Source of the DNA: Fragilaria crotonensis
Taxonomy: Eukaryota; Bacillariophyta; Fragilariophyceae; Fragilariales; Fragilariaceae
NCBI GenBank assembly: GCA_022925895.1
Contig: JAKSYS010000047.1
Location: forward strand, 1 to 64,000
Direction of reading: 5' to 3'
Length of the DNA: 64,000 nucleotides
The notes below the pieces were generated by a model, which was not told where the DNA came from, ran no database searches, and saw nothing but the letters and a program-made list of their open reading frames with translations. The position numbers were made by a program, and so were the translations under genes. Of the stretch, positions 452-64,000 are shown one piece after another; positions within the stretch are counted from its first letter, which is position 1, and every line of letters starts with the position of its first letter.

Positions 452-2861
452 ATGCAAGGAACGAAGTCTGCTCTATCACTATCTCTCTTCTTCCTATTGA
501 GTTGCTACAATCAGTTTCATTCGACTGCTGCCTTTTCTGTTCACAGTTTCAAGGCTTCTTCATTGACACGACCACAGACACCAGCACTTTTTGTCTCCAC
601 ATCGGACAGCTCAAGTGTATCAGTAGCAGATATGCAACGCGGAATTGGAGGTCGCATCGAAGATGCCTTTGAATCTGCCAAGGAACGTGGTGAAGCCGCG
701 TTTGTCACCTTTGTGACTGCTGGATATCCTCGAAGTGAAGGTGAGAACAAATTGATCGTGCAGGATGCTGCAGTCGGGATTTGGGTTGTCAATCGCATGA
801 AGACAATGAGAAGGGAAAGCGGAGTTTGTCCGACATCATGTTGTATGTACGGCTTCAATCTAAATTGTCCCTGACTCTCACACCCATACTCCTACTTCAG
901 ATACTCCATCGATTCTCCTCGCCATGCAAGAGGGTGGTGCCTCTGTGATTGAGCTTGGAATCCCCTACACTGATCCTCAGGCTGACGGTGCCACCATTCA
1001 GCACACCAACCAAGTGGCAATCAAGGGAGGTACATCCAAGATCTCACAATGTCTCGACATGGTCACTCAGGCTCGCGAGATGGGATTGACCATTCCAGTC
1101 GTGCTCATGGGATACTACAACCCCTTTTTGCAGTATGGTATTGACAAGCTCTGTGAGGACACCAAGGCTGCCGGTGCGGACGGTTTCATCGTGGTCGACC
1201 TTCCGCCGGAAGAAGGAATTGAGCTCAACAAATCGTGCCTCAAATTTGGACTTTCCAACATTCCACTCATTGCCCCCACCAGTTCGGACGAGCGTATTGG
1301 TTATTTGACAGACATTGCCTCCACCTTTTTGTACTGTGTCTCCGTCACGGGAGTGACCGGCGCCCGCGCCGCCTTGCCTGACGATTTGGGAGCCTTCCTC
1401 GATCGGGTCCGAGCCAAGACCAATTTGCCACTTGCCGTGGGATTTGGAATTTCCACACCCGATATGGTCCAGGACGTGGCCAACATTAGTGATGGAGTCG
1501 TTGTTGGATCGGCCATTCTCAAGGCATTGGAAGCCGCCGGAGAGGATGCCACGACCGAAGAACGTGCCGCTGCCGTCAAGAAGATTGTGGCGCACTTGAC
1601 GACTGGGTGCAAGCAGTCCGCTACTGCCACGAATCAAGCCACATCGCTGGGACAAGTTCCAAAGGAAAGTCAGGCCAATGGTGAAAAGTCGCGTTTCGGA
1701 AAGTTCGGCGGACAGTATATTCCAGAGACACTCTCCGGCGCCTTTGCGGAATTTGAAGAAGCATATGATCGACTCAAGGACGATCCTGAATTTCTGGCGG
1801 AACTCGCTGTCTATCGCAAGGACTTTGTCGGAGGCCCCACTCCGTTGCACAAGGCTGAAAGGCTTACTGAAATGGCCGGAGGAGCAACCATTTGGCTGAA
1901 GCGTGAAGACTTGGCCCATACCGGCGCACACAAGATCAATAATGCTGTCGGTCAGGCATTGATGGCGAAGCGCCTTGGGAAGCCCCGTATTATTGCCGAG
2001 ACTGGTGCTGGGCAACACGGAGTTGCCACTGCGACGATCTGCGCCAAGCTCGGTTTGGATTGTACTGTTTACATGGGAGCCGTGGATTGCGAGCGACAAA
2101 AGCTCAATGTCTTCCGTATGAACACTTTGGGTGCCAAGGTGGTTCCTGTTCAGGATGGTCAGAGGACGCTCAAGGATGCCATTAATGAGGCAATGCGTGA
2201 CTGGGTGACCAATGTCCGCGACACTCATTATTTGATTGGTTCGGCTGTTGGTCCTCATCCTTTCCCGACCGTTGTTCGTGATTTCCAATCTGTCATGGGC
2301 CGAGAGATCAAGGAGCAAATGCTTGAAAAGGCTGGCAAGCTTCCCGATGCCGTTGTTGCCTGCGTCGGAGGTGGTTCTAACGCAATTGGAGCTTTCCATC
2401 CGTTCATCAACGATGAATCGGTCGCTCTATACGGAGTTGAAGCTGCTGGACATGGCATTGAAGTCGACGAACAGCACTGTGCTACCCTGACGAAGGGCAC
2501 ACCTGGTGTTTTGCAGGGTGCACTTACGTATATCATTCAACAAGAATCGGGTCAAACCCTCAATACTCATTCAATCTCAGCTGGCTTGGATTACCCTGGT
2601 GTCGGCCCTGAGCACGCGTTTTTGAAGGATTCTGGAAGGGCCACATACGAGGCTGTGACAGACGAACAGGCGTTGGAAGGATTCAAGATGATGTGCCAAT
2701 ACGAAGGCATCATTCCTGCGCTCGAGACGAGTCATGCAATCTACTACGCCATCAACCTGGCGAAGACGCTTGGACCAGGTAAGGATCTCGTCATCAACAT
2801 GAGTGGACGCGGTGACAAGGATATGCCACAAATCGCCAGAATCATGGGCGTTGATGTTTGA
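452..2861 (+). CDS. trpAB: fused tryptophan synthase alpha-beta, plastid-targeted
   Basis: Catalyses the last two steps of tryptophan synthesis: the alpha part splits indole-3-glycerol phosphate and the PLP-dependent beta part joins indole to serine. Two exons, 452-740 and 901-2861, with an intron 741-900 (gtgaga...ctacttcag) that joins in frame and gives 749 residues. Residues 1-30 are a hydrophobic signal peptide ending STAAFS, the diatom plastid-import pattern with Phe just after the cleavage site. The alpha domain spans about residues 65-335; [13 protein letters not shown] carries the catalytic Glu (about 114) and Asp (about 125). A short linker follows, then the beta domain from [12 protein letters not shown] (about 360) to the end, with the PLP lysine in HTGAHKINN (about 441) and the phosphate-binding GGGSNA. 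The alpha-beta fusion is known in diatoms and oomycetes. The 3' end lies 68 bases from the convergent sulfotransferase stop. Confidence 0.95.
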
Positions 2862-2929: not shown

Positions 2930-4174
2930 TTATTGTTTGGCATTGATCTGTTCTTGGACAAATTGATGCTGACGGAGATGCAGTTTCAAGGCGAAGGAAC
3001 ATAATATGTCCTCATACTTGACGTACTCACGGAACTCTTCCATGAATGCTGAATCTTTTTTGAGTTCCTCCAATACGGCAGCCGATGACATTTTGGACTT
3101 GTTTGCCCTATACTTCGATGATGGGGAGCCCATGCCATGCATCTCAAACAATCGTTTGATTTCGTCCTTGGAATCCATAACGTACTGCAGTAGCTCCAAA
3201 GAATCTGACATGCGTTCCACAATGCAAATGATAATGGGATACTCCATCATGTTTCGTAGGGCTTGAGTAGTGCGATCCTGGATCGTTGCCTGTCTCTCGG
3301 AGAGTTCCCTACGTTGTTGTGGAGTAATCAAGTACGTCGCGTACGTATTATGATACTTCCCTTGCTGTCGTTCTGCCGAAACTTGACTCTTGATCACGTC
3401 AACGATTGCTTGTAATGTCAATTTCTTCCTTCGATTGCCGAACTGCACCGCGCTGACATATTTGGTCATGGCATCTCGGAAAAAAGTGAAATACTGCGCT
3501 TCAACTTGCTCTCCGGCAGCATCCCGCCACCCGTGTGCACTTCCTAATGGTTGATGGCCGTACAGCATGTCAATATGATTGTGTTCCAGAAACGATGTCT
3601 TGAGAGTCCCATCACCCAATGGAAGCGGCATATGCTGTTTATCAAAAGCAGATTTTAGCTGACACTTCTTTCGATGATGAACATCAGGACCACCACCACC
3701 ACTACTGTACCATGTTGTTCGATTGTCAAGTGAATCACTGGTCAAACCAGAACAGCTAACCACCATGACGCCTGAAGCATTGCAGACAAGCCCATACTCG
3801 GACAATAATCCTCGCATGGAAGATCCTGCCGTTTTGTAAATGTGATTAAAGATTAGCTTTTTGGGTCGAACCTCGTCCGAACAGGCCCACATTGGGTCCA
3901 GTGCTCCGTAGTCTGGATCCAGTGTTGGGAAATCAATGTCATTCAGCGCAGCAGGTGGAGTGATGTGTTGCTGCCGAGAGGAAGAATCGATGAATGAGGA
4001 CTCCAGTAAGGTGTTGAAGTTTCCAATGTCACGATCTGCGCCACTCTTGAGCGATAACCCAGCACTTGGTGGATGCGACAATGCTGGCAATCGATAATTG
4101 ACAAAGGTGAAGGTGATTATCACAATCAACGATAATCGAGTCAGCAATGTTACATTTGCCATTGAAGCCGTCAT
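2930..4174 (-). CDS. Golgi-type sulfotransferase-like protein, copy 1
   Basis: 414 residues in one exon. Residues about 9-27 form one hydrophobic segment close to the N-terminus, giving a type II membrane protein. At about 106-119 KKLIFNHIYKTAGSS matches the 5'-phosphosulfate loop of PAPS-dependent sulfotransferases, and near residue 230 YFTFFRDAMTKYVSAVQF matches the 3'-phosphate element (RD...S). Family knowledge therefore suggests transfer of sulfate from PAPS to a glycan or protein in the Golgi; the acceptor cannot be told. The gene is convergent with trpAB. A close paralog with the same arrangement lies at 10405-11658, so both belong to one duplicated block. Confidence 0.75.
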   Translation of the reverse strand: MTASMANVTLLTRLSLIVIITFTFVNYRLPALSHPPSAGLSLKSGADRDIGNFNTLLESSFIDSSSRQQHITPPAALNDIDFPTLDPDYGALDPMWACSDEVRPKKLIFNHIYKTAGSSMRGLLSEYGLVCNASGVMVVSCSGLTSDSLDNRTTWYSSGGGGPDVHHRKKCQLKSAFDKQHMPLPLGDGTLKTSFLEHNHIDMLYGHQPLGSAHGWRDAAGEQVEAQYFTFFRDAMTKYVSAVQFGNRRKKLTLQAIVDVIKSQVSAERQQGKYHNTYATYLITPQQRRELSERQATIQDRTTQALRNMMEYPIIICIVERMSDSLELLQYVMDSKDEIKRLFEMHGMGSPSSKYRANKSKMSSAAVLEELKKDSAFMEEFREYVKYEDILCSFALKLHLRQHQFVQEQINAKQ

Positions 4175-5100
4175 TGTTGCAGAGCGCTACACAGCGAGGA
4201 GAGTGGCAGAAAGCTCGTAATTAAAAAAGGTTGTGGTGACAAGGGCATCTAAACTCGGAAGGGTCGATTTCGATTTGAATGGATCGCGGATAGAGGCGTA
4301 TACTGCAGGCGGCATGTCGCGTATCGCATATGGCATATCGCATATTGTACAGTGAATAGATGGCATATATCATAGTATATGTGTATTCATTGGTGGCTCT
4401 TTTAGGTGGCCGCCTTCAAAAATGGGCCATAGGCGCCTAAATTCGAATTCGACAAATAAATAGATATATACGTCTACGTGCTGATTATATGTAAAAATGT
4501 ACAGTAGACAGTACTACGATAACCAGTACATAGTGGGTACCGATTACCAATACCTCACCGATATGTCAACTATACCTGGTATTACTGTTGTGATTTCTAA
4601 CCCCAATTTAGCGGGATACCCCGCTTCCGCCAGGAGCTCCAACAGTAAACTACCGGTAGGAGGCTACTCGTCTCTCTCGTGGTCGTAGCTCGCAACGGGG
4701 CTGCGATCCACTTTGTAGACTAAGCTGGGTTGCTCTCGGAGGAAACCCAAAGAATGACTGTTGTTCTGGTTGCTGTTCAAGGCGTCGATGTTCGTAGGAG
4801 TAAGCGGTACTCGGTACGTGGGAACTCCGTCTGGCTGCCGCTCCGTCTGCTCTCCCGGCACCACTACTGGCACATAGGCACCACTGTACCGTACCCCTAA
4901 CCTCTAACCCCTGTGCTAAATCAAGTCTGACAACGCGCCTAAACTAACCTTTCTTAGGCGGTGGTAGGCGCGCCGACCACATCGCCTAAATTGCCCTCTC
5001 CTGCCATGTACTCGAGTAGACTCTAGCAAGCTAGTATTGCTTATTTCAATATACTTTGATGTGGAAATTACAAAATCATTCATAAGTTTTCCCTTTTTCA
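4175..5100. other. spacer with short inverted words, no gene
   Basis: No supported gene. It holds the upstream region of sulfotransferase copy 1, several GTAC-containing words near 4500-4560, and related words such as ggcgcctaaa (about 4431) and gcgcctaaa (about 4936) that pair with nearby tttaggtgg or ttaggcgg. These may be small foldback relics. Confidence 0.4.
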
Positions 5101-10404: not shown

Positions 10405-11658
10405 TTATTGCTTGGCATTGTTCTGCGATTGGACAAACTGATGCTGACGGAGATGCAGCTTCAAGGCAAAGGAATACGATATGTCCTCATACTTGACGTA
10501 TTCACGGAACTCTTCCATGAATGCTGTATCGTTTTTAAGTTCCTCCAATATAGCAGCGGACGACATTTTGGACTTGTTTGCCCTATACTTCGATGATGGG
10601 GAACCCATACCATGGATCTCAAACAATCGTCTGATTTCGTCTTTCGTGTCCATCACGTACCGCAGTAGTTCCAACGAATCTGACATGCGTTCGACGATGC
10701 CAATGATAACGGGATACTTTATTAGGTTTTGCAGCGCTTGAGCGGTGCGATCCTGGGTCGTTGCCTGTCTCTCGGAGAGTTGCTTTCGTTGTTGTGGAGT
10801 AATCAGGTACGTTGTGTAAATGTTATGATACTTCCCTTGTTGTCGTTCTGTCAAAACTCTTTTCTTGATAATTCGAATAATCTCTTGAAGGTTCAAATTC
10901 TTGCTGCGCAAGCTGAACTGTACCTCGCTGACATATTTGGTCATGGCATCTCGGAAAAACGTGAAATACTGCGCGTCAACTTGCTCTCCGGCAGCATCCC
11001 GCCACCCATGTGCACTTCCCAATGGTTGATGGCCGTACAGCATGTCAATATGATTGTGTTCCAGAAATGTCGTATTGAAAGTCCCATCTCCTACTGGTAG
11101 CGGCTTGTGCTGTCGATCAAACGCAGATTTTAGTGTGCAGTTCTTTCGGTTGTTGATATCATCACGACCACTACCACCGCCATTGTACCAAGTTGTTCGA
11201 TTTTCAAGTGAATCAAACGTCAAACCAGAACAACTGACCACAATAGCACCCGAAACGTTGCAGGTCAGGCTATATCCGGTCAAGAATACTCGCATGGCAG
11301 ATCCTGCGGTTTTGTAAATGTGATTGAAGATGAGTTTTTTGGGTCGAACCTTGTCCGAGCAGGCCCACATTGGATCCAGAGTTCCGTATCCTGAATCCAG
11401 AGTTGGGAAATCAATCCCATCCGTCGTCACGTTAGGAGGAGTGATGAGTTGCGGCCGATTGGCAGAATCGTTGAATGAGGACTCCAATAGGGTGTCAAAG
11501 GTTCCAATGTCGTGATCTGCGCCACCCTTGAGCGATAACCCATTTCGTGGATATGACCATGGTGACAATCGATAAAGGGCAAGTGAAAAGAGGATTACCA
11601 CAACCAACGATAATCGAGTCAGTAATGTTACATTTCCATTTGCCATTGAAACCGTCAT
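10405..11658 (-). CDS. Golgi-type sulfotransferase-like protein, copy 2
   Basis: 417 residues in one exon, roughly four-fifths identical by eye to the protein at 2930-4174. It keeps the N-terminal membrane anchor, the PAPS loop KKLIFNHIYKTAGSAMR and the FFRDAMTKYVSEVQF element. Its frame is open throughout, so unlike the neighbouring trpB fragment it may still be functional. Differences cluster in the stem region (residues about 35-95) and around 155-175. The gene is convergent with the trpB fragment, mirroring copy 1. Confidence 0.75.
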   Translation of the reverse strand: MTVSMANGNVTLLTRLSLVVVILFSLALYRLSPWSYPRNGLSLKGGADHDIGTFDTLLESSFNDSANRPQLITPPNVTTDGIDFPTLDSGYGTLDPMWACSDKVRPKKLIFNHIYKTAGSAMRVFLTGYSLTCNVSGAIVVSCSGLTFDSLENRTTWYNGGGSGRDDINNRKNCTLKSAFDRQHKPLPVGDGTFNTTFLEHNHIDMLYGHQPLGSAHGWRDAAGEQVDAQYFTFFRDAMTKYVSEVQFSLRSKNLNLQEIIRIIKKRVLTERQQGKYHNIYTTYLITPQQRKQLSERQATTQDRTAQALQNLIKYPVIIGIVERMSDSLELLRYVMDTKDEIRRLFEIHGMGSPSSKYRANKSKMSSAAILEELKNDTAFMEEFREYVKYEDISYSFALKLHLRQHQFVQSQNNAKQ

Positions 11659-11740
11659 TGTTGCGGAGTGCTATTGCGAATGCAGAGGCAGGATGCATTC
11701 AAAAGGTAGTGGTACGATCAGGTAGTTGGGGCGCTGGAGC

Positions 11741-28790: not shown

Positions 28791-30323
28791 CTACCCACCC
28801 ACAGATAGCAGTGAAACTGTAAACACAATTGTCGCATTCGGTGGAATCCGATTTCCACTGCCCTTTTCTCCATATCCAAGATGGGGTGGAATGACTAGGA
28901 CTCGTTCCCCGGCAACCCGCATCCCAACCATCCCCTCGTCCAATCCACGCACTACTTGTCCTGTTCCATGACGGAATTGCAATGGTTTGTTGATGGCGGA
29001 TGCGTCAAATACTGTCCCATCTTGAAAGGTACCAGTGTAATGAATCGATACCTTGCGACCGGGTTGGATCAAGGGACCAGTACCGAGACAAATATCCTTG
29101 ACCACAATGCCACTCTTTAGTCGACGTTCCTTAATGAGACTCGTAGGTAGGGTCGACTTTGATGTTACTGAACCACCGTTTGTTGTAAGTGCAGTCGTTG
29201 TAGTACTAGCTGTCGGTTGTCGAGTGAGTGCCAAGGCTTGCTCGAGTTCCTTGGCCTTTTCTTTTGCCAATTTCTTGCGCTCCTTTCGACTAAGGACTTG
29301 CGGTTTGTCACCTTGTTGTTGTTGTTCTTCTTGTTGTTGTGATGAATCTGACGAGCGATCGGCTGCCACCTGTTGCGTCGTTATTGTTTCTTGACTACCA
29401 TTGAGATTTTGTCGTCCCTCCACTGAGTCTAGTGTTTTTGTCGACACTGTCGTTGATGATTTGTCATCGACCTTTGTCCTCTTGGAACTATTTGGTGGAA
29501 CCTGTTCCTTGATAGGAAGTTCCTCTCTTTGCATTTCGGCAAGCTCATCAATAAGAGCCTGGGCATCAGGTTTTCGTTTCCGAATTTTCGATGTTGTTGC
29601 TGGTGTTTTCGCAATCGAATTGTTGTCGTTTGACACTTGTGGTAGCAATTTCTGAGTAGTGACGTGCTCATGCGGCACATCGTGAGGTTGTTGAGGTTGT
29701 GGTGTCTGATGACCAACATTCCCACATACGGTGACGGATCCCCACGGAGAGACTGCCGTGAATGTAATAATCTGAGATCCTTCCCAAACAAGTCCAAGAC
29801 CAGTTATTGTTGGTTGTCCTGGAACAAATCTCACAATGGTAATGTCATTACAATCTGTCCCCTCGCACGAATATCGAAGTTCTGCTGTTTTTTCCTTCTT
29901 GTTGTTGTCAGCATCGGAATCCAAATCATCGGAATGAGGAACTTCACGATCGAACGACGCCGTTGCCACCGACAAGGTCAGTTTAGCACCTGCTGAGATT
30001 CTCACTCGTGTCCACGACGATGAGTCGTTCGATGGCACTTGAATGGCCAAAACAGAGCCTGGAGTGTAGAGCAAATACTTTTCTTCAACGTTTGGGATAT
30101 GATGACAGGTTGATACGCCAAGGTAGTCGCCGTATTCAAGGTCTTTGTTGGAAGAATCAGACGACATCGGTAATTGTCGCTTTGTCGATTTGTTGTTATC
30201 GTTTGCCAGATGTATATAATGTGTGTATGAAATATACATGGAAACGAAATAATGACTGATTACGATCGTCGGACAGTCCATCGGCACAGTGCGCATAAGT
30301 TGAATGGTCACAGATTTCCGCAT
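28791..30323 (-). CDS. nuclear FKBP-type peptidyl-prolyl isomerase with nucleoplasmin-like domain
   Basis: The C-terminal ~110 residues are a complete FKBP domain: GPLIQPGRKVSIHYTG, GTVFDAS, FRHGTGQVVRGLDEG, PHLGYGEKG and the final ATIVFTVSLLSV. The middle is a charged, Lys- and Gln-rich linker with nuclear-localisation-like runs (KIRKRKPD, SRKERKKLAKEKAKEL). The N-terminal ~170 residues look like the nucleoplasmin-like beta domain of Fpr3/Fpr4 and FKBP39/46 proteins, which act as histone chaperones and proline isomerases. The first ATG in frame is 30323; another is at 30167. An 84-base segment 30263-30180 has GT..AG ends and is a multiple of three, so it could be spliced or retained without changing frame. 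Confidence 0.85.
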   Translation of the reverse strand: MRKSVTIQLMRTVPMDCPTIVISHYFVSMYISYTHYIHLANDNNKSTKRQLPMSSDSSNKDLEYGDYLGVSTCHHIPNVEEKYLLYTPGSVLAIQVPSNDSSSWTRVRISAGAKLTLSVATASFDREVPHSDDLDSDADNNKKEKTAELRYSCEGTDCNDITIVRFVPGQPTITGLGLVWEGSQIITFTAVSPWGSVTVCGNVGHQTPQPQQPHDVPHEHVTTQKLLPQVSNDNNSIAKTPATTSKIRKRKPDAQALIDELAEMQREELPIKEQVPPNSSKRTKVDDKSSTTVSTKTLDSVEGRQNLNGSQETITTQQVAADRSSDSSQQQEEQQQQGDKPQVLSRKERKKLAKEKAKELEQALALTRQPTASTTTTALTTNGGSVTSKSTLPTSLIKERRLKSGIVVKDICLGTGPLIQPGRKVSIHYTGTFQDGTVFDASAINKPLQFRHGTGQVVRGLDEGMVGMRVAGERVLVIPPHLGYGEKGSGNRIPPNATIVFTVSLLSVGG

Positions 30324-30639
30324 TAGCGTTATGGGTTTTTGCTGTGGACCCGTCCATGTGCTCTCCTCTATGAAATCTACACGCTCCACTGGTAGTCCCG
30401 CGCCATAATTTTGAACACGATTTTTCAGTATTCGTTCTCTGTACCAGTACTTTCGTCTATTCTGTGTAGATTAGCACGGGTTCTTTGTACAAAGGTGTTC
30501 TTAAATACTCCAGTATACGTAGAGTCTACTGAGTAGAAAATGTACGAGCAACACCTTGTATGCATTGGTGACACGTCCGAGCGTAGTCTCATAACTTCCT
30601 CGTTCATCACAATCCTACTGTTGAGCAGCATCAGAGAAA
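30324..30639. promoter_or_regulatory. divergent promoter region FKBP/NASP
   Basis: The two histone-chaperone-like genes diverge from this ~316-base spacer, so it probably holds both promoters. It contains GTACCAGTACT near 30439. Confidence 0.45.
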
Positions 30640-32154
30640 ATGGCGGCTCCTTCTCAAACTTCCCCCAACCAAGCGTCCAAGCCAAATTCGGATCATGCCC
30701 CTGATGACGGTAGCTTGAAACCTCCTCCTTGTCCTCCAGAAGCCCATTCTGAGGACAATGCTCAATCGCAATTGCCTCAGTCGCCTCTGGAAACACAACC
30801 AACACCGACGTATGAATCCACAGAAGCATCAGATACCTATCTTCTCGCCAAATCGTTAATGCAAGCTGGTGATTTTGATTCTGCTCTTGAAACGATTGGA
30901 ATGGCCATGGGAGAGGTCACCAGTCAATTGGCGGCACGCGACGGCATTGACGAAGAAGATGCGGCCATTCACCCGGCTCTGGCTCCTCTTTATTACCTCT
31001 ACGGAACAACGCTGTTGTACACGATTGAAGAATCCTCCGATACTCTACAAGCTCCAGACCCGCTGACCAACAATGACAATGACAACGAGGATGAGGATGG
31101 CGACAACAACGGCGCTGATGATACTCAAATTGCCTGGGAGAATTTAGAAACGGCTCGCATGATTATCTCCACCAAAATGATCCACACGACGGACATGGCC
31201 AACAGTGACAATGACGATAACAAGAACAACAACAAACTCAAACTCGACTTGGCACAGATTCATTTACGCCTTGGCGATCTCCAACGCGCCAATGGACGAT
31301 ACCAGGATTCCGTTACCGACTACCTTTCCTGCTTGGCACTACGTTTGCCACTCTTGGGACCGTACGATCGAAAGGTGGCCGACACACAATACAATCTCGG
31401 ACTCGTCTACATGTTGTTGGCAGCCGAAGGGGATCGTCAACAACCTCAACCACAGTACCCATCATCTCACGATCCAGAGAATGAACAGCCCATTGTCATT
31501 TCGCCGAAACTTCGCGAGGAATACCGTGCCAAGGCATTGGTCCATTACTTGGGAGCCGCCAAGGCCTTTGCTGGTCAAATTGCATTCTTGACTGGTCGCG
31601 ATCCGGATGAGATTGTCAATATTTCCAGTACGGAATTGTCTGGCAAGACGACAGGAATGGACCCACAAGAATTGAATGCGACCGCCATGAGTGCAACTCT
31701 GGCAGCGATTCGCACACGTGTGGCGCAACAACTTGGCAGTGTGGACGTTGTGGGCGGCGACTATCAAACTATGGAGACGATTCAAGAATTGAAGGAAATT
31801 CTGGATGAAATCCAAGAAACCATGGATGAGGCCGAATCGGCCAAAGTGGCCATTGAGCAAGTGTCGGAACTCAAGCTCAAGGCACAAGCGGCTGCAGAAG
31901 GCGATGGTGGTGAAGTGATCAATATGGACGGATCCACCACCACAATTGGGTTCGGGACTTCGAATGCATCCGTCGCTGCAGCAGCAGTCCTGACAATAAG
32001 CACACAAGTAGATGCGTCCGCAGCAGCTGGTGGAGGTGGAGGTCAACCAATGATGGTGGTTCGAAAGAAGAAGAAGCGCGATGATGAAGATTCGAAATTG
32101 CCCGCAACAGAGAATGATCAAATCCTGAAGAAGACAAAGTCGAATGATCCTTGA
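30640..32154 (+). CDS. NASP/SHNi-TPR family histone chaperone
   Basis: 504 residues in one exon. A Pro/Gln-rich N-terminus is followed by tetratricopeptide-like helices: TYLLAKSLMQAGDFDSALET, PALAPLYYLYGTTLLYTI, then after an acidic insert (NDNDNEDEDGDN) LAQIHLRLGDLQRANGRYQDS and KVADTQYNLGLVYMLL. The TPR interrupted by an acidic loop, a late coiled coil (METIQELKEILDEIQETMDEA) and a basic C-terminal tail (VRKKKKRDDED) are the layout of NASP/Hif1/Sim3 proteins. These bind H3-H4 (and H1) and feed histones to assembly factors in the nucleus. Confidence 0.82.
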   Translation: MAAPSQTSPNQASKPNSDHAPDDGSLKPPPCPPEAHSEDNAQSQLPQSPLETQPTPTYESTEASDTYLLAKSLMQAGDFDSALETIGMAMGEVTSQLAARDGIDEEDAAIHPALAPLYYLYGTTLLYTIEESSDTLQAPDPLTNNDNDNEDEDGDNNGADDTQIAWENLETARMIISTKMIHTTDMANSDNDDNKNNNKLKLDLAQIHLRLGDLQRANGRYQDSVTDYLSCLALRLPLLGPYDRKVADTQYNLGLVYMLLAAEGDRQQPQPQYPSSHDPENEQPIVISPKLREEYRAKALVHYLGAAKAFAGQIAFLTGRDPDEIVNISSTELSGKTTGMDPQELNATAMSATLAAIRTRVAQQLGSVDVVGGDYQTMETIQELKEILDEIQETMDEAESAKVAIEQVSELKLKAQAAAEGDGGEVINMDGSTTTIGFGTSNASVAAAAVLTISTQVDASAAAGGGGGQPMMVVRKKKKRDDEDSKLPATENDQILKKTKSNDP

Positions 32155-37890: not shown

Positions 37891-40436
37891 TTGTTTCGAG
37901 ATAAAAGGAATTGTTTCTGACGTTTTTGTCTTTTGCCGCATAAGTCGATGAAAACAGAGGACATCGACCAATTGACAACAGAACTACGAGACCTGAAGAT
38001 CAGAGTAGCGCAGCTTGAGGCCGCTATCACCGATCGCGAGACAGACGAACGCAGCGCCAGCACGGCAGCAGCAACAGTGTTTCAGCGCGGAGACCGAGTA
38101 AAGGTCAAGAACAAGTTGAAGAAGCCCGCTACGTGGCCTGTTACCGCCAAGTGGGATCAGGAGGCAGCACAGCTAGCCACGGTCACCCACAACTACAAGG
38201 ACCAAGTGCACTTCATAACTGACAACGGAGTCAAGACGTGGCGAGCACACAACAACCTTGCCAGACTAGCAAAATGAGCCAGCCCACATCTGATACCGCG
38301 ACGAGCAGCAGCGCTACCAGTGTCCGAAGCTCCGGCAACAGAAGTGGCACCAACAGAGCAGTACGTGGTAACCGTGCTGGACGCACACGAAGTGGTGGAA
38401 CAACGGTGACCAGCCGCCCCATTTTCAAGGGCGACACAGAAGACATGAACGGAAACGTTTTTCAGTGTTACGAAGAACAAGCTGACAGACGACAGTACGC
38501 AACGCACAGACGAGGATGCCGTTCTGAACGACGCCACCGAAGGCGACGCGGCGGCAGAACGACCATACAATCTCCGCCAACGGCTTCCTGCGGCCAGCAC
38601 TTTCAAGCAAGCCATGGACACGCCACACGACGGCAAATCCTATTTTCCCCCGACCCAACTGCTGCAGCAACATGGCCACAGTTTCGCCCAACTCATGAAC
38701 CAACTCGCCGGGTCTGGGAACATACGTGAACAAATCAAGCGACACGGAAAAACAGCCGAGACGACCCTTATGAAGCACGTTTTTGGTTTCATCATGAACC
38801 AAATGAGCGCAAAGGCTGGCATCCGAAAGCACGGGAAGGCCGCCGAGGCTGCTCTAATGAACGAGTTCGCACAACTCGAGGACCTCAGCGCATACGAATC
38901 CATTGATCCGAGAACACTTACAAAGAAGCAACGCAAAGAGGCCCTCCGAGCCATCAACTTACTCAAGGAGAAGCGCGACGGATCACTGAGGGCACGGACC
39001 GTCGCAGACGGCAGACCACAGCGCAGCATGTACGACAAGTCACAGACGGCATCACCCACGGTGTCTACGGATGCACTGATGCTATCCATCATGATAGATG
39101 CAAAGGAAGCCCGCGACGTTGCCACAGCTGACGTTGTCGCAGCCTATCTGAAGGCATTCATGGACGATTTTGTCATAATGAAGTTCACTGGGGAGTCCGT
39201 CGATATTCTATGCAAAATGAACCCGGACCACACCAAACACGTCACCATCGAGGGAGGAACGAAGGTGCTCTACGTAAGATTAGTGAAGGCACTCTACGGG
39301 TGCGTAAAATCCGCCCTGCTGTGGTACGAACTGTTCAGTGGCACACTGAAGAAAATGGGTTTCGAACTGAACCCATACGACTCATGCATCGCGAACAGCA
39401 CCATCAACGGCAAGCAATGTACCATCGCTTGGTACGTTGACGACACGAAGATATCGCATGCCGACCCGGATGTGGTGACATCAATCATCGAAAAAATTGA
39501 GGCTACGTTCGGAAAGATGACCGTGAAAAGGGGCATGGAACATGTGTTCCTAGGCATGCTCATCAAATACACAGGAAAGGGTACCGCCGTCATCACTATG
39601 AAAGAATACTTGAAAGAGGCGCTGACCGAATCGGGAATGAATATCACGCGATCAGTCGCAACGCCCGCTTTGAGAGACCTGTTTGACGTTGACGAGAACT
39701 CACCACCGCTCGAACGAGGCGAAGCCGAGTCCTTCCACAGCGTCACGGCCAAGCTGCTGTATGTGTCCACCAGGGCGCGTGTGGACCTACTACTAGCGAT
39801 CGCGTTCCTCTGCACCCGGGTGTCAAAAAGCACGACGCAGGACCGAGAGAAACTTAAGCGAGTACTTGAATACATCCATGGCAGCATGGACCGCGAGTAC
39901 ACAATCGGCGCAGACGACATGGGTAGAATGATGACCTGGGTTGACGCCGCTTTCGCCGTGCACCCGGATATGAAAAGTCATACAGGCGGTGTCATCTCGT
40001 TCGGACGGGGTGGAATCGTATGCAAGTCCACGAAACAGAAACTGAACACGAAGAGTTCAACGGAGGCCGAGTTCGTCGGCGCCAGCGATTACCTACCGAA
40101 CACGGTTTGGGTAAAGTTTTTCTTGGAGGCCCAAGGTTACACCATGGAGTCCAATGTTCTGGCGCAAGATAACGAAAGCGCCATCAAGCTTGAAAGGAAC
40201 GGACGCATGTCGGCAGGACCGAAGTCCCGCCACATTGACATCAGATACTTTTGGATCAAGGATCGTTTGAAGACGGGCGCCGTTACCGTGGAACATTGCC
40301 CTACTCTGGAAATGCTCGCGGATTTTTTTACTAAGCCACTACAGGGTCGCCTTTTCAAAAGGTTCAGAGATGTACTACTCGGTAATCTACATGTTAACGC
40401 CCTTGCCGCTCCCTTATCGGACCCCATCGAGGAGCG

Positions 40437-40821
40437 TGTTGGAGAAATACGAATGGACCCACTTAATGGCGCGACTACGGGCGTCATAAGCACTGGCACT
40501 GGTTCACTGAAGAGTCAAGACACGGGCATCAAGACCACGGTGCAAGCAGAGCCACAGAAGCTAGAACGACAAGAAACGCAGAATGCCACATGGGCTGACG
40601 TTGTGCGTCGTGTACCAGAGTCCACGAAAACGACGCAGAGAAGGGTCTCTAGAGCCCAGTTTAATAAGATTGTTTTGGGATCATTATCTCGAAACAATCC
40701 CGTTAGTAAAGTCTAAGTTTGATTGACCGCGACGCTATCAATTTGGTTCAAGTATACGCAACAAGAAAAGTACTCGGTTCATTGCCTACAGTATAGTTGC
40801 GCTATATCGTTCCTTACAACA
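40437..40821 (+). repeat. 3' LTR of the copia element
   Basis: 385 bases, nearly identical to 37503-37890 and followed directly by the second copy of the gtggc target duplication. Confidence 0.95.
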
Positions 40822-41816: not shown

Positions 41817-44800
41817 ATGGGATCGTCCACGCCCCTTCACCCTCTCCAGAGGGATGCCGTAAATACGTTGAACGCGAACACTTACGACCACTTCACCTCC
41901 GACGAGATCGAGGAGTTGAAACAACTACTGAATGAACGACGCAATCAGTCGTCAGCGATAGCGATGCCTATTGCACGCACAACGGTAAATGGGGCCTTCA
42001 TGAACGAGACCGATGCGACGAGAGCGGATGAATCCTCTCATTTGTTGAGGGATACGTTTTCGTTCATTATTGCAGCTCGTACTTGGTCCTTGCCTTTCTT
42101 CACAGGAGTGACTGTTGTTGTCACCAAGATTGGTATATATTGCTTGATTCTTGCCGACATGGCATCCACCGGATCGCCGGGCAATCCCCTTGGAATTTCC
42201 GCAACGCTGGAATGGCCTGTCGCATTTTGTCAGACTATAGCAGTCGCCGGTAGGTTGAACGTGCATTCAGTGTGACCCGTGTATGCAAGGTACCATGACG
42301 CTTGCCTTACCCTTACGTTCTGCCTCTCGATCACAGTCGCTGTTATTTCGCAAAATGATTTGATATCTGCTCTTACATCAATGAGTAATGGTTATGGCGG
42401 AATTGGTGAGGCCTTTGAGCACGCCAGGTTCTCGAAATGGTTCGCTTCAGTGTCTTTCGTATTCATCGCTGGGGTGTATGGTTTGCTCGTGACATTTCTT
42501 TTAGTCGTCACCTCTTCGGACGTCGTTACTCTCATATTGAACTTCACGGCCATAGAATTCATCAGTTTGCTTGGTGAGTGTCCCGTACAATGCGCACCGC
42601 GTGGTGTCGCCTTCCCGACGAGGACGATCATCTCATTTTCGCACATTTTTTTTATTGCTTGCAGATGACTTTGTCTTTCATTTTTGCAGTTTTGGATTCT
42701 TTGGTAAAGCGAATCGATTGATGGCAAAAATTGTACAACAAACCAAGTATCACCAGGTGGGAGGACAAGAAAGGATACCATGGCTCCATACATGCTTGTT
42801 GTTTTTCTCCTTCGCGAGCATGATCGGAGGACTCGTCTATGTCTTCGTCCTGCAGTTGACTGGCCAGTTTCTGCCTTCATCAATTGTTGTTCAATTTGAC
42901 GATGACATCACTCCTGCTCTCAGCACCTTTAGCGGGCCCTTCGTCTTGAATTTAACTGACGGTAGTATTTTTGACGAGGGTCGAGTGCGCTATTATAACA
43001 GAATTGGAGAAGGAACGATCGGATACTGCGACGACCAAAAAGCCTGGACTTTTGGACATTCACGGTCTGATCATTGCGACGGCATCATGGCATTGTCACA
43101 GAATCCTACATCGCGCGATATTTCCCTAATTCTGGGGAAGACCTGGTATGTCCCTGTCAATGGTGACCCGAGTAGGGTGTTACCGATGGAGAATGCCGTA
43201 GGTGTCGCATCGTGTTCCGACGATGACGACTGTGGTGGTTCTGGTCGAGGAATTTGTGAATCGTCAGGCTGCCGTTGTCATGAAGGATATTTCGGTATTT
43301 GGTGTAACTATGGTCATCATGAAGTCTGCGATACGATACGGCTTGATAAATCCGAATCCTTCGCGCGACTTGAGCACAAAGAAACCAACGAATTCGTTGT
43401 CCTCCGGGATCACGAAGGAAAGCTTGTGACGGCATACTTCCATCCAGTTTACATGAGTTCTGTGGCTGACCTCAACGATACGTCCAAGGCAGTCGATCTG
43501 ATTTTCTTCTCTGGACTTCGATGGATGCTTAGCTCAGTTTTCCCTCCGGAATCTGGATTGCACTCTTACTTCAATTCATCATTTCATGCTTCACACTCGT
43601 TGCTCGGTCCGATTGAAGCGACCACAGAGGTAGTCAAATTCAACACAGCAAGCGACGAGAGGCCAGATCCTTCAGATCATTCATGGTTCCATCCTGGAAG
43701 CCCCGACATCACAGAAATTAAGCCCGTTCTGAGCGTCGATACCTTTTTCACCTGTTCCAAGTGCGGTACCTTTTATCCGTGTGCATTCGGCAATGCGTGT
43801 GACCGCGATGGGAAGTGTATCTGCGAAAACGGAGAGACAGGCTCGTTTTGTCAAGTACTTCCAGTTGGCGACGGGCAGTGCAATGAATTCTTCAACAGTC
43901 GGGTGTTTGGATATGATGGCGGAGATTGTTGTGAAGGTTCTTGTTCTTCCGGTGCCCATCGATGCGGCACTATGGAAGAAGGCGGATTGGACGGCATTTT
44001 AGTAGGATTCCCGTTTTGTATTGATCCACATCAAAACTGTGGCGCTGACATGAAGGAATGTTGGTCCCATACGAGCAACATTGTGACCCTTCATAGCAAA
44101 GGCAGCTCAGGTGCTTTTGTGACGGTATCAAGCAATGGGAGGACACTGGTAGTGTCGGAACCTGGGCTGAACACGATCCGGGTGTTTGACCAGGTCGACG
44201 CTGCGTGGGTGCAAAGGGGTCAGACTTTGGTGGGTGCAGCTAAAAGCAGGTTCGGAGCTTTTGTGTCGATTTCGACTCTTCCTGGCAATGTTGAGCGACG
44301 AAGGATGGGCCATTTGCCGGTTGTTCTCGCTGTTGGCGCAGTGGGAAACACCACTAACTATGTCGAAGTCTATGTGTTTAAAGAGCATGGAGACGCATGG
44401 TCGTTAGAAGGACAAAAACTGATTTTCAATGAAACGATTGACTCCCTTTCCGTTGGAAGTACAGGACACCTGCTTTCCCTCGCCGTTGGACTGAGAAGCA
44501 GCAATTCCGGGTATGTCTACAAGCAAGACAGGGAATCGCAATGGCAGCTTGTCTTTAATACAAGTGGGTCAATGGTCGGACTCTCGGGCAATGGGCAAAC
44601 GGTCGTTTGCCTGTCTACAAGTCCGGTAGAAGAAGAGTTACAGGAATCGGGAATTTTTTCACTTTCAGAGCTTGCAATTCCCGATGCTTATGACTCTAGT
44701 AGAGCGGTCAACGCTACACTACCCAATCTGCTCCCTATTGATATGCGCAATCTCACCGTCCAGTCGAGACCAGTGGCTCTGCAGGTGGATTATGCCGGAA

Positions 44801-45555
44801 CTTCTTGTGTCATATTTGGCCCCGTTCTGTCTGAAGTATATGGGATCAATGGATTTGCGATGATCGGGCTGCAAAGAAACGGAACGGCCTTTGTAACGGA
44901 TCGCTTAGCTGTGGTCGATGGCAACGTTTCCAATGCATCGCCAGAGTCGGAGAGACCTGTCGTTAGTTTGTCGTCGGATACTAGTTTCTTGGCTCTCAAT
45001 TTACAGACAACCCAAGTCGAGGTGTTCGATATCACTGAAGCATCTCTTTTCCCCGAATCGTTTAAGTTTCTCCCAAATGCAAGCGATATTCCATCGTTCA
45101 AAGTCAATGCTCTGGAAGATAGCTTCGCAATATCGGATGGTGGCACTGCCATTGCAGTTGTCATGAATGACGAAGTTGCTGTTGCGCATCGCACTCCGTT
45201 CTGCAATGGAACGAGAATACGACTTGCAATCAGTCTTGACGACGAACCTGGCTCAGTTTCCTGGTCCCTTGACTATGCGCGACGCGTCGACGGAGATTTA
45301 TCGGGTGGACTCATGGACAATATTGCGTCGTGTGTTGGCTGTTACGGAGGCGATGTCCGGTACAGCCGAGTTGTTGTTGTCGAAGATGTGTGTATCCCAA
45401 CGAACAAAGTAGGCTGTGTGGAGCTGACCTTTTCAGTTTCAGGGAGACGTCTGGGAGAGGGCGCTGGTTTCATGGCATTTGCAGATGGATATCCGTTTGC
45501 TAAATACGATGGCAAACTCGACACCCAAGTGTTTGCTCCTGGGGAGTGTACGTAG
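41817..45555 (+). CDS. large membrane protein with EGF-like and LNR (Notch) modules and propeller-like ectodomain
   Basis: Three exons (41817-42249, 42337-42573, 42665-45555; introns 87 and 91 bases) join in frame for 1186 residues. The first ~300 residues carry four likely membrane helices (for example SLPFFTGVTVVVTKIGIYCL, SVSFVFIAGVYGLLVTFLLV, ACLLFFSFASMIGGLVYVFV-like at about 255). The ectodomain has Cys-rich EGF-like patches (CRCHEGYFGIWC and CICENGETGSFC), then a Lin12/Notch-like repeat QCNEFFNSRVFGYDGGDCC, which usually binds calcium. About 350 residues of repeated beta-strand pattern follow (SSNGRTLVVSEPGLNTIRVF, STGHLLSLAVGL, SGNGQTVVCLS), like a WD/Kelch-type propeller. Diatoms have many such proteins; no ligand or function can be assigned. 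The start could lie upstream. Confidence 0.75.
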
Positions 45556-60303: not shown

Positions 60304-61166
60304 ATGACGAGCACTGCTCCTGAGAATCCTCGCATTATCGCCCTGTTTGATGTAGATTGTGGATTTCACGTTGACGATTCCTCGTGGTGAGGTAGAACCT
60401 GCCACGATGGAGTTCATGATTGCATTGAGCAAGAAGATCACTGTTGGCGTTGTTTCCGGCTCTGATCTTCCAAAGCAAGAAGAGCAGCTTGGAGAATGTA
60501 TTGCCAGTATCTTCCCATACAACTTCAGTCAGAATGGGTTGGTCGCGTACAAGAATGGTGAACTCCAAGAAGTTCAGACGATTGCCGAATTCCTTGGAGA
60601 AGCAAGACAACGTCAAGAAGATTGTCAACAGAGTTTTGAAGGACATTGCGGAACTCGATCTTCCCATCAAGGCAAGCAAACATTGGTTGTCGGGTTTCAT
60701 TACCTTCCGCAGTTTGATAAAGCTGATGACACATATTTCGCCATCCATTTGAAGGGTGGAACATTTGTCGAGTTCAGGAGTGACATGTTCATTATTTCTC
60801 CCCTTGGGTGCAACTGTTGCAGGGACGAACGCAATGCCTATGAAACGTTTGACTTGGAAAATGACGTGAGAAAGAATATGGTGGAGGCTATGAAAAAGGA
60901 ATTCAGTTATGAACTTGACCTACAGCATTGGAGGTCAGATTTCGTTTGATGTTTTTCCTGAAGGCTGGGACAAGACCTAGCTACTGTTTGAGGTATTTGT
61001 CTCCCGATGACGTTGACGAGATCCACTTCTTTGGTTCTTTGGGAACAAGACTTTTGAGGTAGGCAACGATTTTGAGATGTTTTCCCATGAAAGGACGATT
61101 GGACGTACGGTCACTTCCCTTGACGACACCAGGGCACAATGTGAAAAGCTTTTCAACTGCCGCTAG
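60304..61166 (+). pseudogene. PMM: phosphomannomutase pseudogene
   Basis: The protein family interconverts mannose-6-phosphate and mannose-1-phosphate for GDP-mannose synthesis. Homology is nearly full length: IIALFDVD (catalytic Asp motif), TLTIPRGEVEP, VGVVSGSDLPKQEEQLGE, SQNGLVAYKNGEL, DNVKKIVNRVLKDIAELDLP, GGTFVEFRSDMFIISPLG, SIGGQISFDVFPEGWDKT, YCLRYLSPDDVDEIHFFG and TFEVGNDFEMFSHERTIG, up to a stop at 61164-61166. The frame changes at least five times: in the DVDGT motif (60358-60367), after FLGE (about 60600), near 60920, after GWDKT (about 60979) and in an 8-base tandem duplication ttctttgg (61027-61042). A GC-AG intron 60672-60754 (83 bases, gcaagc...tgaag) splits PIK and GGTF. Several independent insertions mean real decay, not one read error. 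Confidence 0.85.
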
Positions 61167-61862: not shown

Positions 61863-62846
61863 TTAGTAGACGGAGTACTGGCGCACTAGGTGCTGTGGGT
61901 TGTCATACGAAGCCTGTACAGTCAAGAAACGCAACACAGGAGTTAGTGGAGCCGGGGCAAGAGAAAATCCTTGGAAAGAAGTTACCAGAAGATCCATTTC
62001 CGCTGGAGTCACGTCATCCTTGCTAATAGAAAGTGCTTCGAAATAAGGAATCAAGAGATTAACTTCTTCATCGGAAGATTCCCAATCCATGGGATCGTCG
62101 ATCTCTTCTTCAGTCTCGCCATCGAAACATGGAATCAAGAGATTAACTTCTTCATCGGAAGACTCCCAATCCAAGGGATCCACGATTTCTCTGTATCCCC
62201 GATCCATGGGAATGGGATCCTCAATTTCCGTGGGCTCCCAATCCATGGGAATGGGATCCTCGATTTCCGTGGATTCCCAATCCATGGGAATGGGATCCTC
62301 AATTTCCGTGGATTCCCAATCAATGGGAATGGGATCCTCGATTTCCGTGGATTCCCAATCCATGGGAATGGGATCCTCAATCTCCGTGGATTCCCAATCA
62401 ATGGGAATGGGATGGTCAATTTCCGTGGATTCCCAATCCATGGGAATGGCATCCTCAATGACTGGGACAAGGAGGGTCGCGGGTGTGGCGGGCCAACGTG
62501 CACTGGCATAGTTGTTTGGAGTGTTCGTGGGAAGCCATGGGAATCCAAACTGGTTCAAGTTTGAGGGGGGTGGCGGAGCATGAGCGTTGCGGGGTGCACT
62601 GGCATAGTTCGTCGGCGTGTTCAATGGGAAGCCAAACTGGTTCAAGTTCAAGGGGGTTGACTGAGCACGAGGGTTGCAACGTGAAGTCGCATAGTTGGTC
62701 GGAGTGTTCAATGGGAAGCCGAACTGATTGAAGTTCGAGGGGGGTAGAGCATGAGCTTCCGAAGGCGAACTTGCATGCTTAGGGAAGCCGAACTGATTGA
62801 AGTTCGAGGGGGGTGGAGCATTGGGGGGATCGGTAGGGGCGCACAT
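61863..62846 (-). CDS. tandem-repeat protein (NQFGFP and PIPMDWESTE repeats), function unknown
   Basis: 327 residues in one exon; not a family I recognise. Residues about 10-115 hold four copies of SN(F/L)NQFGFP, several followed by LNTPTNYA. Residues about 130-220 hold seven copies of a 13-residue unit IEDPIPMDWESTE in which Met and Ile alternate in the first copies (PIPMDWE/PIPIDWE). Two longer acidic units follow, DWESSDEEVNLLIPCF and DWESSDEEVNLLIPYF. The tail is more ordinary (AEMDLLVTSFQGFSLAPAP). There is no signal peptide or membrane segment. The composition is Pro/Asp/Glu/Trp-rich and probably disordered; the NQFGF motif recalls FG-type or short linear binding motifs, but that is speculation. 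The open frame through perfect 39-base repeats argues for a real gene. Confidence 0.65.
   Translation of the reverse strand: MCAPTDPPNAPPPSNFNQFGFPKHASSPSEAHALPPSNFNQFGFPLNTPTNYATSRCNPRAQSTPLNLNQFGFPLNTPTNYASAPRNAHAPPPPSNLNQFGFPWLPTNTPNNYASARWPATPATLLVPVIEDAIPMDWESTEIDHPIPIDWESTEIEDPIPMDWESTEIEDPIPIDWESTEIEDPIPMDWESTEIEDPIPMDWEPTEIEDPIPMDRGYREIVDPLDWESSDEEVNLLIPCFDGETEEEIDDPMDWESSDEEVNLLIPYFEALSISKDDVTPAEMDLLVTSFQGFSLAPAPLTPVLRFLTVQASYDNPQHLVRQYSVY
62218..62451. repeat. 39-bp coding minisatellite, six units
   Basis: Six consecutive 39-base units (tcctcaatttccgtgg... to ...catgggaatggga) encode the PIPMDWE repeats on the minus strand. Units with ccatggga and tcaatggga alternate, suggesting growth by doubling of a 78-base pair of units. 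Confidence 0.92.
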
Positions 62847-62977: not shown

Positions 62978-63091
62978 TGTCCGTTCAGTTTTGTCGATGA
63001 GACATCCACGTATTTTCACGGCACTTCCTACAAAGGTTCATCTTATATAATGTCCGTTCAGATTTCCTTGTAACACCCCTTGTCCGTTCAG
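62978..63091. promoter_or_regulatory. triple TGTCCGTTCAG element upstream of the repeat-protein gene
   Basis: The 11-base word tgtccgttcag occurs at 62978-62988, 63051-63061 and 63081-63091 (minus strand CTGAACGGACA). The last two are 30 bases apart. A minus-strand TATA-like tatataag sits at 63041-63049 between copies, about 200 bases before the start codon at 62846. This fits a promoter with repeated sites; a decayed coding repeat is the alternative. Confidence 0.5.
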
Positions 63092-63629: not shown

Positions 63630-64000
63630 ATGTCCGAGCCCATCAATCTCGAAACCCTCGCCTCAGAAATTGCTGCCTTGGCGGATAAGGTCATGACTTT
63701 GAAGACCGAAGGATCCGATGCCGATGCAATCAAAGCATGTGTCGATGCGCTTCTGGCTGCAAAGCAAACCTCAGCACTGATGCTTGTACCTGGTACTGTA
63801 TCGGAAATACCGGTACTACTAGCATCGTTCAACTTAATACATAGTGTTATGTCATAGAGTAGCACATACAACTTTCTCGCCCCACACTGCGTACTACTAG
63901 TACAAGTACCAGCCCATGTATGTATTTTTGCTGCTTGTCTCATCAGTGTCCAAATAACCAATAACCCGAACTCATTCATTTCACGATCAATATTGTCTCC
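63630..64000 (+). CDS. first exon of a probable WHEP-domain protein, partial at window edge
   Basis: The ATG at 63630 (aaccatgtcc) opens a frame whose residues about 10-45, EIAALADKVMTLKTEGSDAD then IKACVDALLAAK, fit the helix-turn-helix WHEP domain found at the ends of eukaryotic aminoacyl-tRNA synthetases (Gly, His, Met, Trp, Glu-Pro). The frame ends at 63857 after a GTAC-rich, non-coding-looking stretch, so a splice donor probably lies between 63770 and 63805 and the gene continues beyond the window. The synthetase identity cannot be told from this piece. Confidence 0.5.

Follow-up and report, generated by a model that had tools for sequence, protein, structure and literature searches.

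A tryptophan flanked by aspartate or glutamate characterizes the W-acidic class of peptides, which are bound by the TPR domains of the kinesin light chain (PMC6214655). This form of recognition is known from the animal kinesin light chains, and the W-acidic adaptors that appear in the part of that source considered here come from animals, a protein of vaccinia virus being mentioned as well (PMC6214655). In SKIP (TNLEWDDSAI) and calsyntenin-1, a hydrophobic residue precedes the Trp, which is itself flanked by Asp or Glu (PMC6214655). The LEWDDS of SKIP has its counterpart in the MDWESS and MDWEST of the protein described here, in which, by contrast, the motif is present in eight copies and the protein is an orphan.

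The locus in question lies in the window, that is, the whole 64-kb stretch of DNA of the diatom Fragilaria crotonensis that was analyzed. The initial annotation had placed a repeat protein here, and the analysis recovered it on the minus strand (62846..61863), as a single frame of 327 residues, running from ATG to TAA, with its repeats in frame. The product is probably a disordered orphan protein with multivalent motifs, to judge from its modeled structure and its composition. The favored, if still tentative, reading, which rests on the sequence, a structural model, and analogy, is that of a fast-changing gene encoding a disordered acidic protein, in which the eight DWE units would represent a repeated docking peptide.

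Organization of the Repeats

The protein is strongly acidic, with a pI of 4.05 and 59 Asp and Glu residues against only 10 Lys and Arg (2 Lys and 8 Arg). Its N-terminus (MCAPTDPPNAPPP) is followed by a region rich in Pro and Asn (aa 12–117; 62496..62813, minus strand), which contains the four NQFGFP units previously reported (aa 17, 40, 69, and 98), three of them continuing into NTP(T/N)NYA. The 39-base array follows (aa 133–223; 62178..62450, minus strand), and encodes seven 13-residue units. Tandem Repeats Finder (TRF) delimits this array at 62175–62459, with 7.3 copies and 89% matches; the array stays in frame, as described earlier, and the offsets of the DNA self-alignments are all multiples of three. 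A second, 87-base array was detected by TRF at 62537–62745 (2.4 copies, 82%). Beyond the 39-base array, there are two units of the form DP(L/M)DWESSDEEVNLLIP(C/Y)F, with a 28-residue spacing (aa 223–269; 62040..62180, minus strand; offset 84 bases), followed by a C-terminal tail with no repeats (aa 270–327; 61866..62039, minus strand), in which the AlphaFold2 model has a low-confidence helix at residues 281–291.

The DWE motif is found eight times, with six occurrences in the 13-residue array and one in each of the two DWESSDEEVNLLIP units, which are both present, as had been proposed. The claim of seven PIPMDWESTE units is borne out by the seven 39-base units, but only six of these retain DWE, as the seventh (PIPMDRGYREIVD) has undergone the replacement of W by R, and now reads DRG. 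The array is also slightly irregular at other points, with unit 1 beginning with A rather than P, and unit 6 reading DWEP. A PxDWES core, where x is M, I, or L (with the one DWEP unit), is common to the 13- and 28-residue units, and a run of 18 identical bases connects the two types in the DNA self-alignment (offsets 351, 273, and 195), so that they are best regarded as a single motif family with two spacers. The three sets of units do, then, stand in the order originally described, but they represent two families of motifs rather than three types of repeat.

Growth and Decay of the Array

The residue at the variable position of array units 1–5 alternates between Met and Ile (M I M I M), while units 6 and 7 both have Met. 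Units 3 and 5 are identical and a single base separates unit 2 from unit 4, which means that the pair formed by units 2 and 3 differs from that of units 4 and 5 at just one of 78 bases. This near-identity supports a recent duplication of a two-unit block, and the sequence thus supports the growth of the 39-base array by pairs. The alternation noted in the initial annotation holds for units 1–5, and the paired growth deduced from it is supported in this way.

At the edge of the array, unit 7 departs from the consensus in seven of its 39 bases, five of which are first or second codon positions, and has lost its Trp; for this reason, it appears to have been released from constraint. Given this decay, it is unlikely that each of the units is strictly constrained. 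No second copy of the repeat protein was found elsewhere in the 64-kb window.

Search for Relatives

The supposition that the protein belongs to no known family is consistent with the profile searches, whose scope was Pfam and NCBIfam: no Pfam family was recovered at E values of up to 10, and no NCBIfam family at up to 1, nor was there any match among the PDB sequences at up to 1. Collections of contigs were scanned with six short peptide patterns each, and are thus able to reveal close relatives only. In the viral contigs, the whole protein produced one pattern stretch and its C-terminal 85 residues 19, none of which was confirmed by tblastn; none of the 18 stretches in the prokaryotic genome contigs was confirmed, and tblastn recovered no relative among the phages and plasmids. 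As the collections searched were viral, prokaryotic, phage, and plasmid, none of them eukaryotic, this absence of relatives says little.

Evidence for a Coding Frame

The ORF is quite likely to be a real coding sequence. Codon statistics trained on 12 long ORFs, chosen by hand from a list of 28 in the window, assign this frame the highest score of the six, with a log-likelihood ratio of +29.7, the other five ranging from −39.2 to +4.1. The span of the ORF contains no stop codon in this frame, and 6–16 in each of the other five. The score corresponds to 0.091 per codon, the training ORFs, scored on themselves, varying from 0.023 to 0.172, and it is maintained when only synonymous choice is considered (+16.4, versus at most +4.3 in the other frames). 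The contribution of the different parts is unequal, with +17.3 for the array, +10.7 for the C-terminal part, and +1.6 for the N-terminal third, which is lower than the +3.5 of one plus-strand frame; in synonymous choice only, the +4.0 of this third is also lower than the +4.7 and +5.3 of two other minus-strand frames.

The repeats themselves preserve the reading frame. In the self-alignments of the DNA at an E value of 0.01, all 19 of the 19 offsets are divisible by three, and the spacings, among them 39, 69, 84, 87, 96, and 351, represent different pairs of copies, while the 19 alignments are not independent events. The bias toward third-position differences is clear at a lag of 39 bases (16 of 26, p 0.003) and weak in the 87-base array (9 of 21 at lag 87, p 0.24), both values being derived from pairwise comparisons that are not independent. 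These counts, which are defined by the DNA, are preferred to those obtained from segments chosen by protein likeness, which are 18 of 32 (p 0.006) with unit 7 and 17 of 26 without it, the latter being biased by the omission of this unit and by the way in which the segments were picked. In the NQFGFP cores, all five differences between units 1 and 4, and all five between units 2 and 4, are in the third position, one of them being a Phe/Leu change; three of the five differences between units 1 and 3 are of this type, and the single difference between units 1 and 2 is in the second position.

From stop to stop, the frame extends over 359 codons, with a maximum of 319 and a mean of 232 for the longest frames of 40 Markov-simulated sequences of 64 kb. 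This length is not decisive on its own, because it is inflated by the repeat array, across which other frames are also open. A minisatellite that expanded within a marginal open frame, giving rise to a protein of little or no function, is a rather unlikely alternative, to which this multiplicity of open frames lends weight, together with the near-identity of the array, its decayed last unit, the near-neutral codon score of the N-terminal third, and the lack of relatives in the Pfam, NCBIfam, PDB sequence, viral, prokaryotic, phage, and plasmid collections. A frame of this kind does not readily account for several separately diverged repeat copies that are spaced in frame, nor for the third-position excess of the 39-base array. 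It is also at odds with the openness of the parts outside the array, which has a joint chance of approximately 5e-4 (0.095 for the N-terminal and 0.0054 for the C-terminal part, given their own order-2 composition).

Disorder, Docking, and Other Possible Roles

The protein, modeled by AlphaFold2 from its single sequence, has a mean pLDDT of 39.6, with 56 residues at 50–70 and none at 70 or above, and the residues of 50–70 are located mostly in the 13-residue array, according to the block means. Values as low as these fit a chain that is probably disordered, but are also expected of any orphan modeled without an alignment, and provide weak evidence; the disorder is inferred from this model and from the composition of the protein. 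The multivalent short motifs of the original description are nevertheless evident, in the form of repeated NQFGFP and DWE units in a chain with no confident fold.

The pattern [LMI][DE]W[DE] occurs eight times in these 327 residues, and only once in the remaining 27 ORFs of the list from which the training set was drawn, a total of 12,018 residues that includes some antisense frames that are not genes. Eight of the 10 Trp residues of the protein fall within this pattern. The feature that marks the W-acidic adaptors bound by the kinesin light chain, a Trp flanked by Asp or Glu in a disordered segment, is thus found here, with eight matches and low pLDDT. These eight motifs are mutual copies, however, and their number is therefore a product of duplication and does not stand for eight separate origins, while the resemblance itself is based on a very short motif, and is not a demonstration of docking.

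Under the docking reading, each DWE unit would bind weakly to a basic and hydrophobic groove on a folded partner, for example a TPR domain or one built from helical repeats of another type. With the units in tandem, the avidity would rise, or several partners would be bridged. The NQFGFP block may represent another set of stickers, distinct from this one. Changes in the copy number of the array would come about through in-frame slippage or unequal exchange, one or two units at a time. The relaxed constraint at unit 7, with its seven differences in 39 bases and lost Trp, counts against docking, as do, for the favored explanation as a whole, the near-neutral codon score of the N-terminal third and the weak third-position excess of the 87-base array. 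The literature searches retrieved no paper that joins diatoms with the kinesin light chain and tetratricopeptides, or that deals with diatom orphan genes in connection with tandem repeats and intrinsic disorder.

The acidic and hydrophobic stretch of aa 217–288 (61983..62198, minus strand) raises the possibility of a co-activator-like protein, in which the C-terminal part, acidic and containing Trp, Leu, and Phe, would be an activation domain, and another factor would recruit the protein to the DNA. A published 39-residue rule, based on charge and the number of W, F, Y, and L residues, is satisfied by 18 of the 289 tiles of the protein, all within this stretch, as in the VP16 and CITED2 class, and both anchor domains of the rule derive from proteins with no DNA-binding domain (PMC10550315, in the part considered here). 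In the control ORFs, only 20 of the 10,992 tiles pass, in two of the 27 ORFs. This role is nonetheless unlikely, as the count of 18 tiles is reached by 1218 of 2000 shuffles of aa 133–327, by 1279 of 2000 of aa 223–290, and by 166 of 2000 of the whole protein, so that it is largely their composition that lets these tiles pass. The rule does not extend to the 13-residue array, which has approximately three W, F, Y, and L residues per tile, and the first of the passing tiles begins no earlier than aa 217. The protein also differs from the VP16 and CITED2 class in the lack of any DNA-binding domain found here; no Pfam domain was recovered, and a simple pattern revealed no basic NLS. The rule itself was built on human factors (PMC10550315, in the same part).

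A condensate role for the protein is possible, by analogy, and the repeated Trp and aromatic motifs recall the architecture of PYCO1, the Rubisco linker of the diatom pyrenoid, which also has tandem repeats with Trp motifs (PMC10288592, in the part considered here). A pyrenoid-linker-like scaffold of this type, with Trp stickers arranged along a disordered chain, is nevertheless improbable. The motif of PYCO1 is KWSPR, with flanking Lys (PMC10288592, in the same part), whereas the present protein has DWE, with acidic flanks and a pI of 4.05, and not a single KWSP match; in addition, no plastid targeting was recognized by eye.

The acidic repeats, which contain Ser and Trp, also invite comparison with the silica or cell-wall proteins of the diatoms, such as the cingulins, silaffins, and silacidins, which are repetitive, partly acidic, and partly Trp-containing (PMC4557024, in the part considered here). 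A protein of this kind is extremely unlikely here, as there are no matches for KxxK, only two Lys in all, and one RxL, and the N-terminus has no hydrophobic signal segment evident by eye.

The FG nucleoporins have many FxFG or GLFG repeats. A protein of this type was considered and rejected, given that the ORF contains neither, and only four FG dipeptides. Simple pattern counts, to which no chance expectation is attached, recovered four NES, three SIM, four LIR, and 14 CK2-type [ST]..[DE] matches, and a simple scan of the protein found no clathrin box. The VNLL that follows SSDEE is presumably similar to a SUMO-interacting motif.

Genomic Surroundings

Three exact copies of TGTCCGTTCAG (62978–62988, 63051–63061, and 63081–63091) are found within 114 bases on the 5′ side of the ORF, between it and a divergent ORF that starts with a WHEP-TRS-like domain (63630–63857, plus strand; 24.4 bits, against a cut-off of 32.5, E 2.9e-5). 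These copies are a possible regulatory element, as a candidate suggested by the sequence; there are no others in the window at up to one mismatch, and three or more were obtained in 16 of 100 shuffles, a comparison that refers to the count and not to the clustering. A phosphomannomutase-like ORF (60359–60949, plus strand; Pfam PF03332, E 1.6e-32) lies on the 3′ side of the repeat ORF. Both of these neighbors are indicative of eukaryotic DNA.

ARAGORN detected no tRNA in the window, and there was no Rfam match at the gathering scores. At 864–2861 (plus strand), a single frame resembles a tryptophan synthase alpha-beta fusion, and is overlapped by an antisense frame of 460 codons (1044–2426). 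The ORFs at 2930–4186 and 10405–11670 (both minus strand) are closely similar by eye, and share a HIYKTAGS-type motif, which we take to recall the sulfotransferases; the former has no Pfam match at an E value of 0.01. What is presumably an FKBP-like frame (28791–30470, minus strand) adjoins a TPR frame (30625–32154, plus strand), which is NASP-like by a SHNi-TPR match at the curated cut-off of 21 bits. Further along the plus strand, the frame at 38449–40716 resembles the final part of the polyprotein of a retrotransposon of the Copia type, and a frame of 999 codons (42556–45555) has only a weak match to DUF7949, below its cut-off, together with Cys-rich stretches that we take to be EGF-like and LNR-like.

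Implications

Disordered repeat proteins confined to a single lineage are well known, and if the present ORF lacks either expression or variation among strains, it would be just another orphan repeat ORF. A bolder idea, drawn by analogy and very improbable, is that of a natural, high-avidity W-acidic array in an alga, in which a copy number that varies among strains would tune the recruitment of a motor adaptor or another TPR protein. If this were true, tandem W-acidic recognition would extend beyond the animals, and valency would be a naturally varying trait. If the ORF is expressed and the array varies among strains, it would provide a natural series relating the number of docking motifs to the strength of binding.
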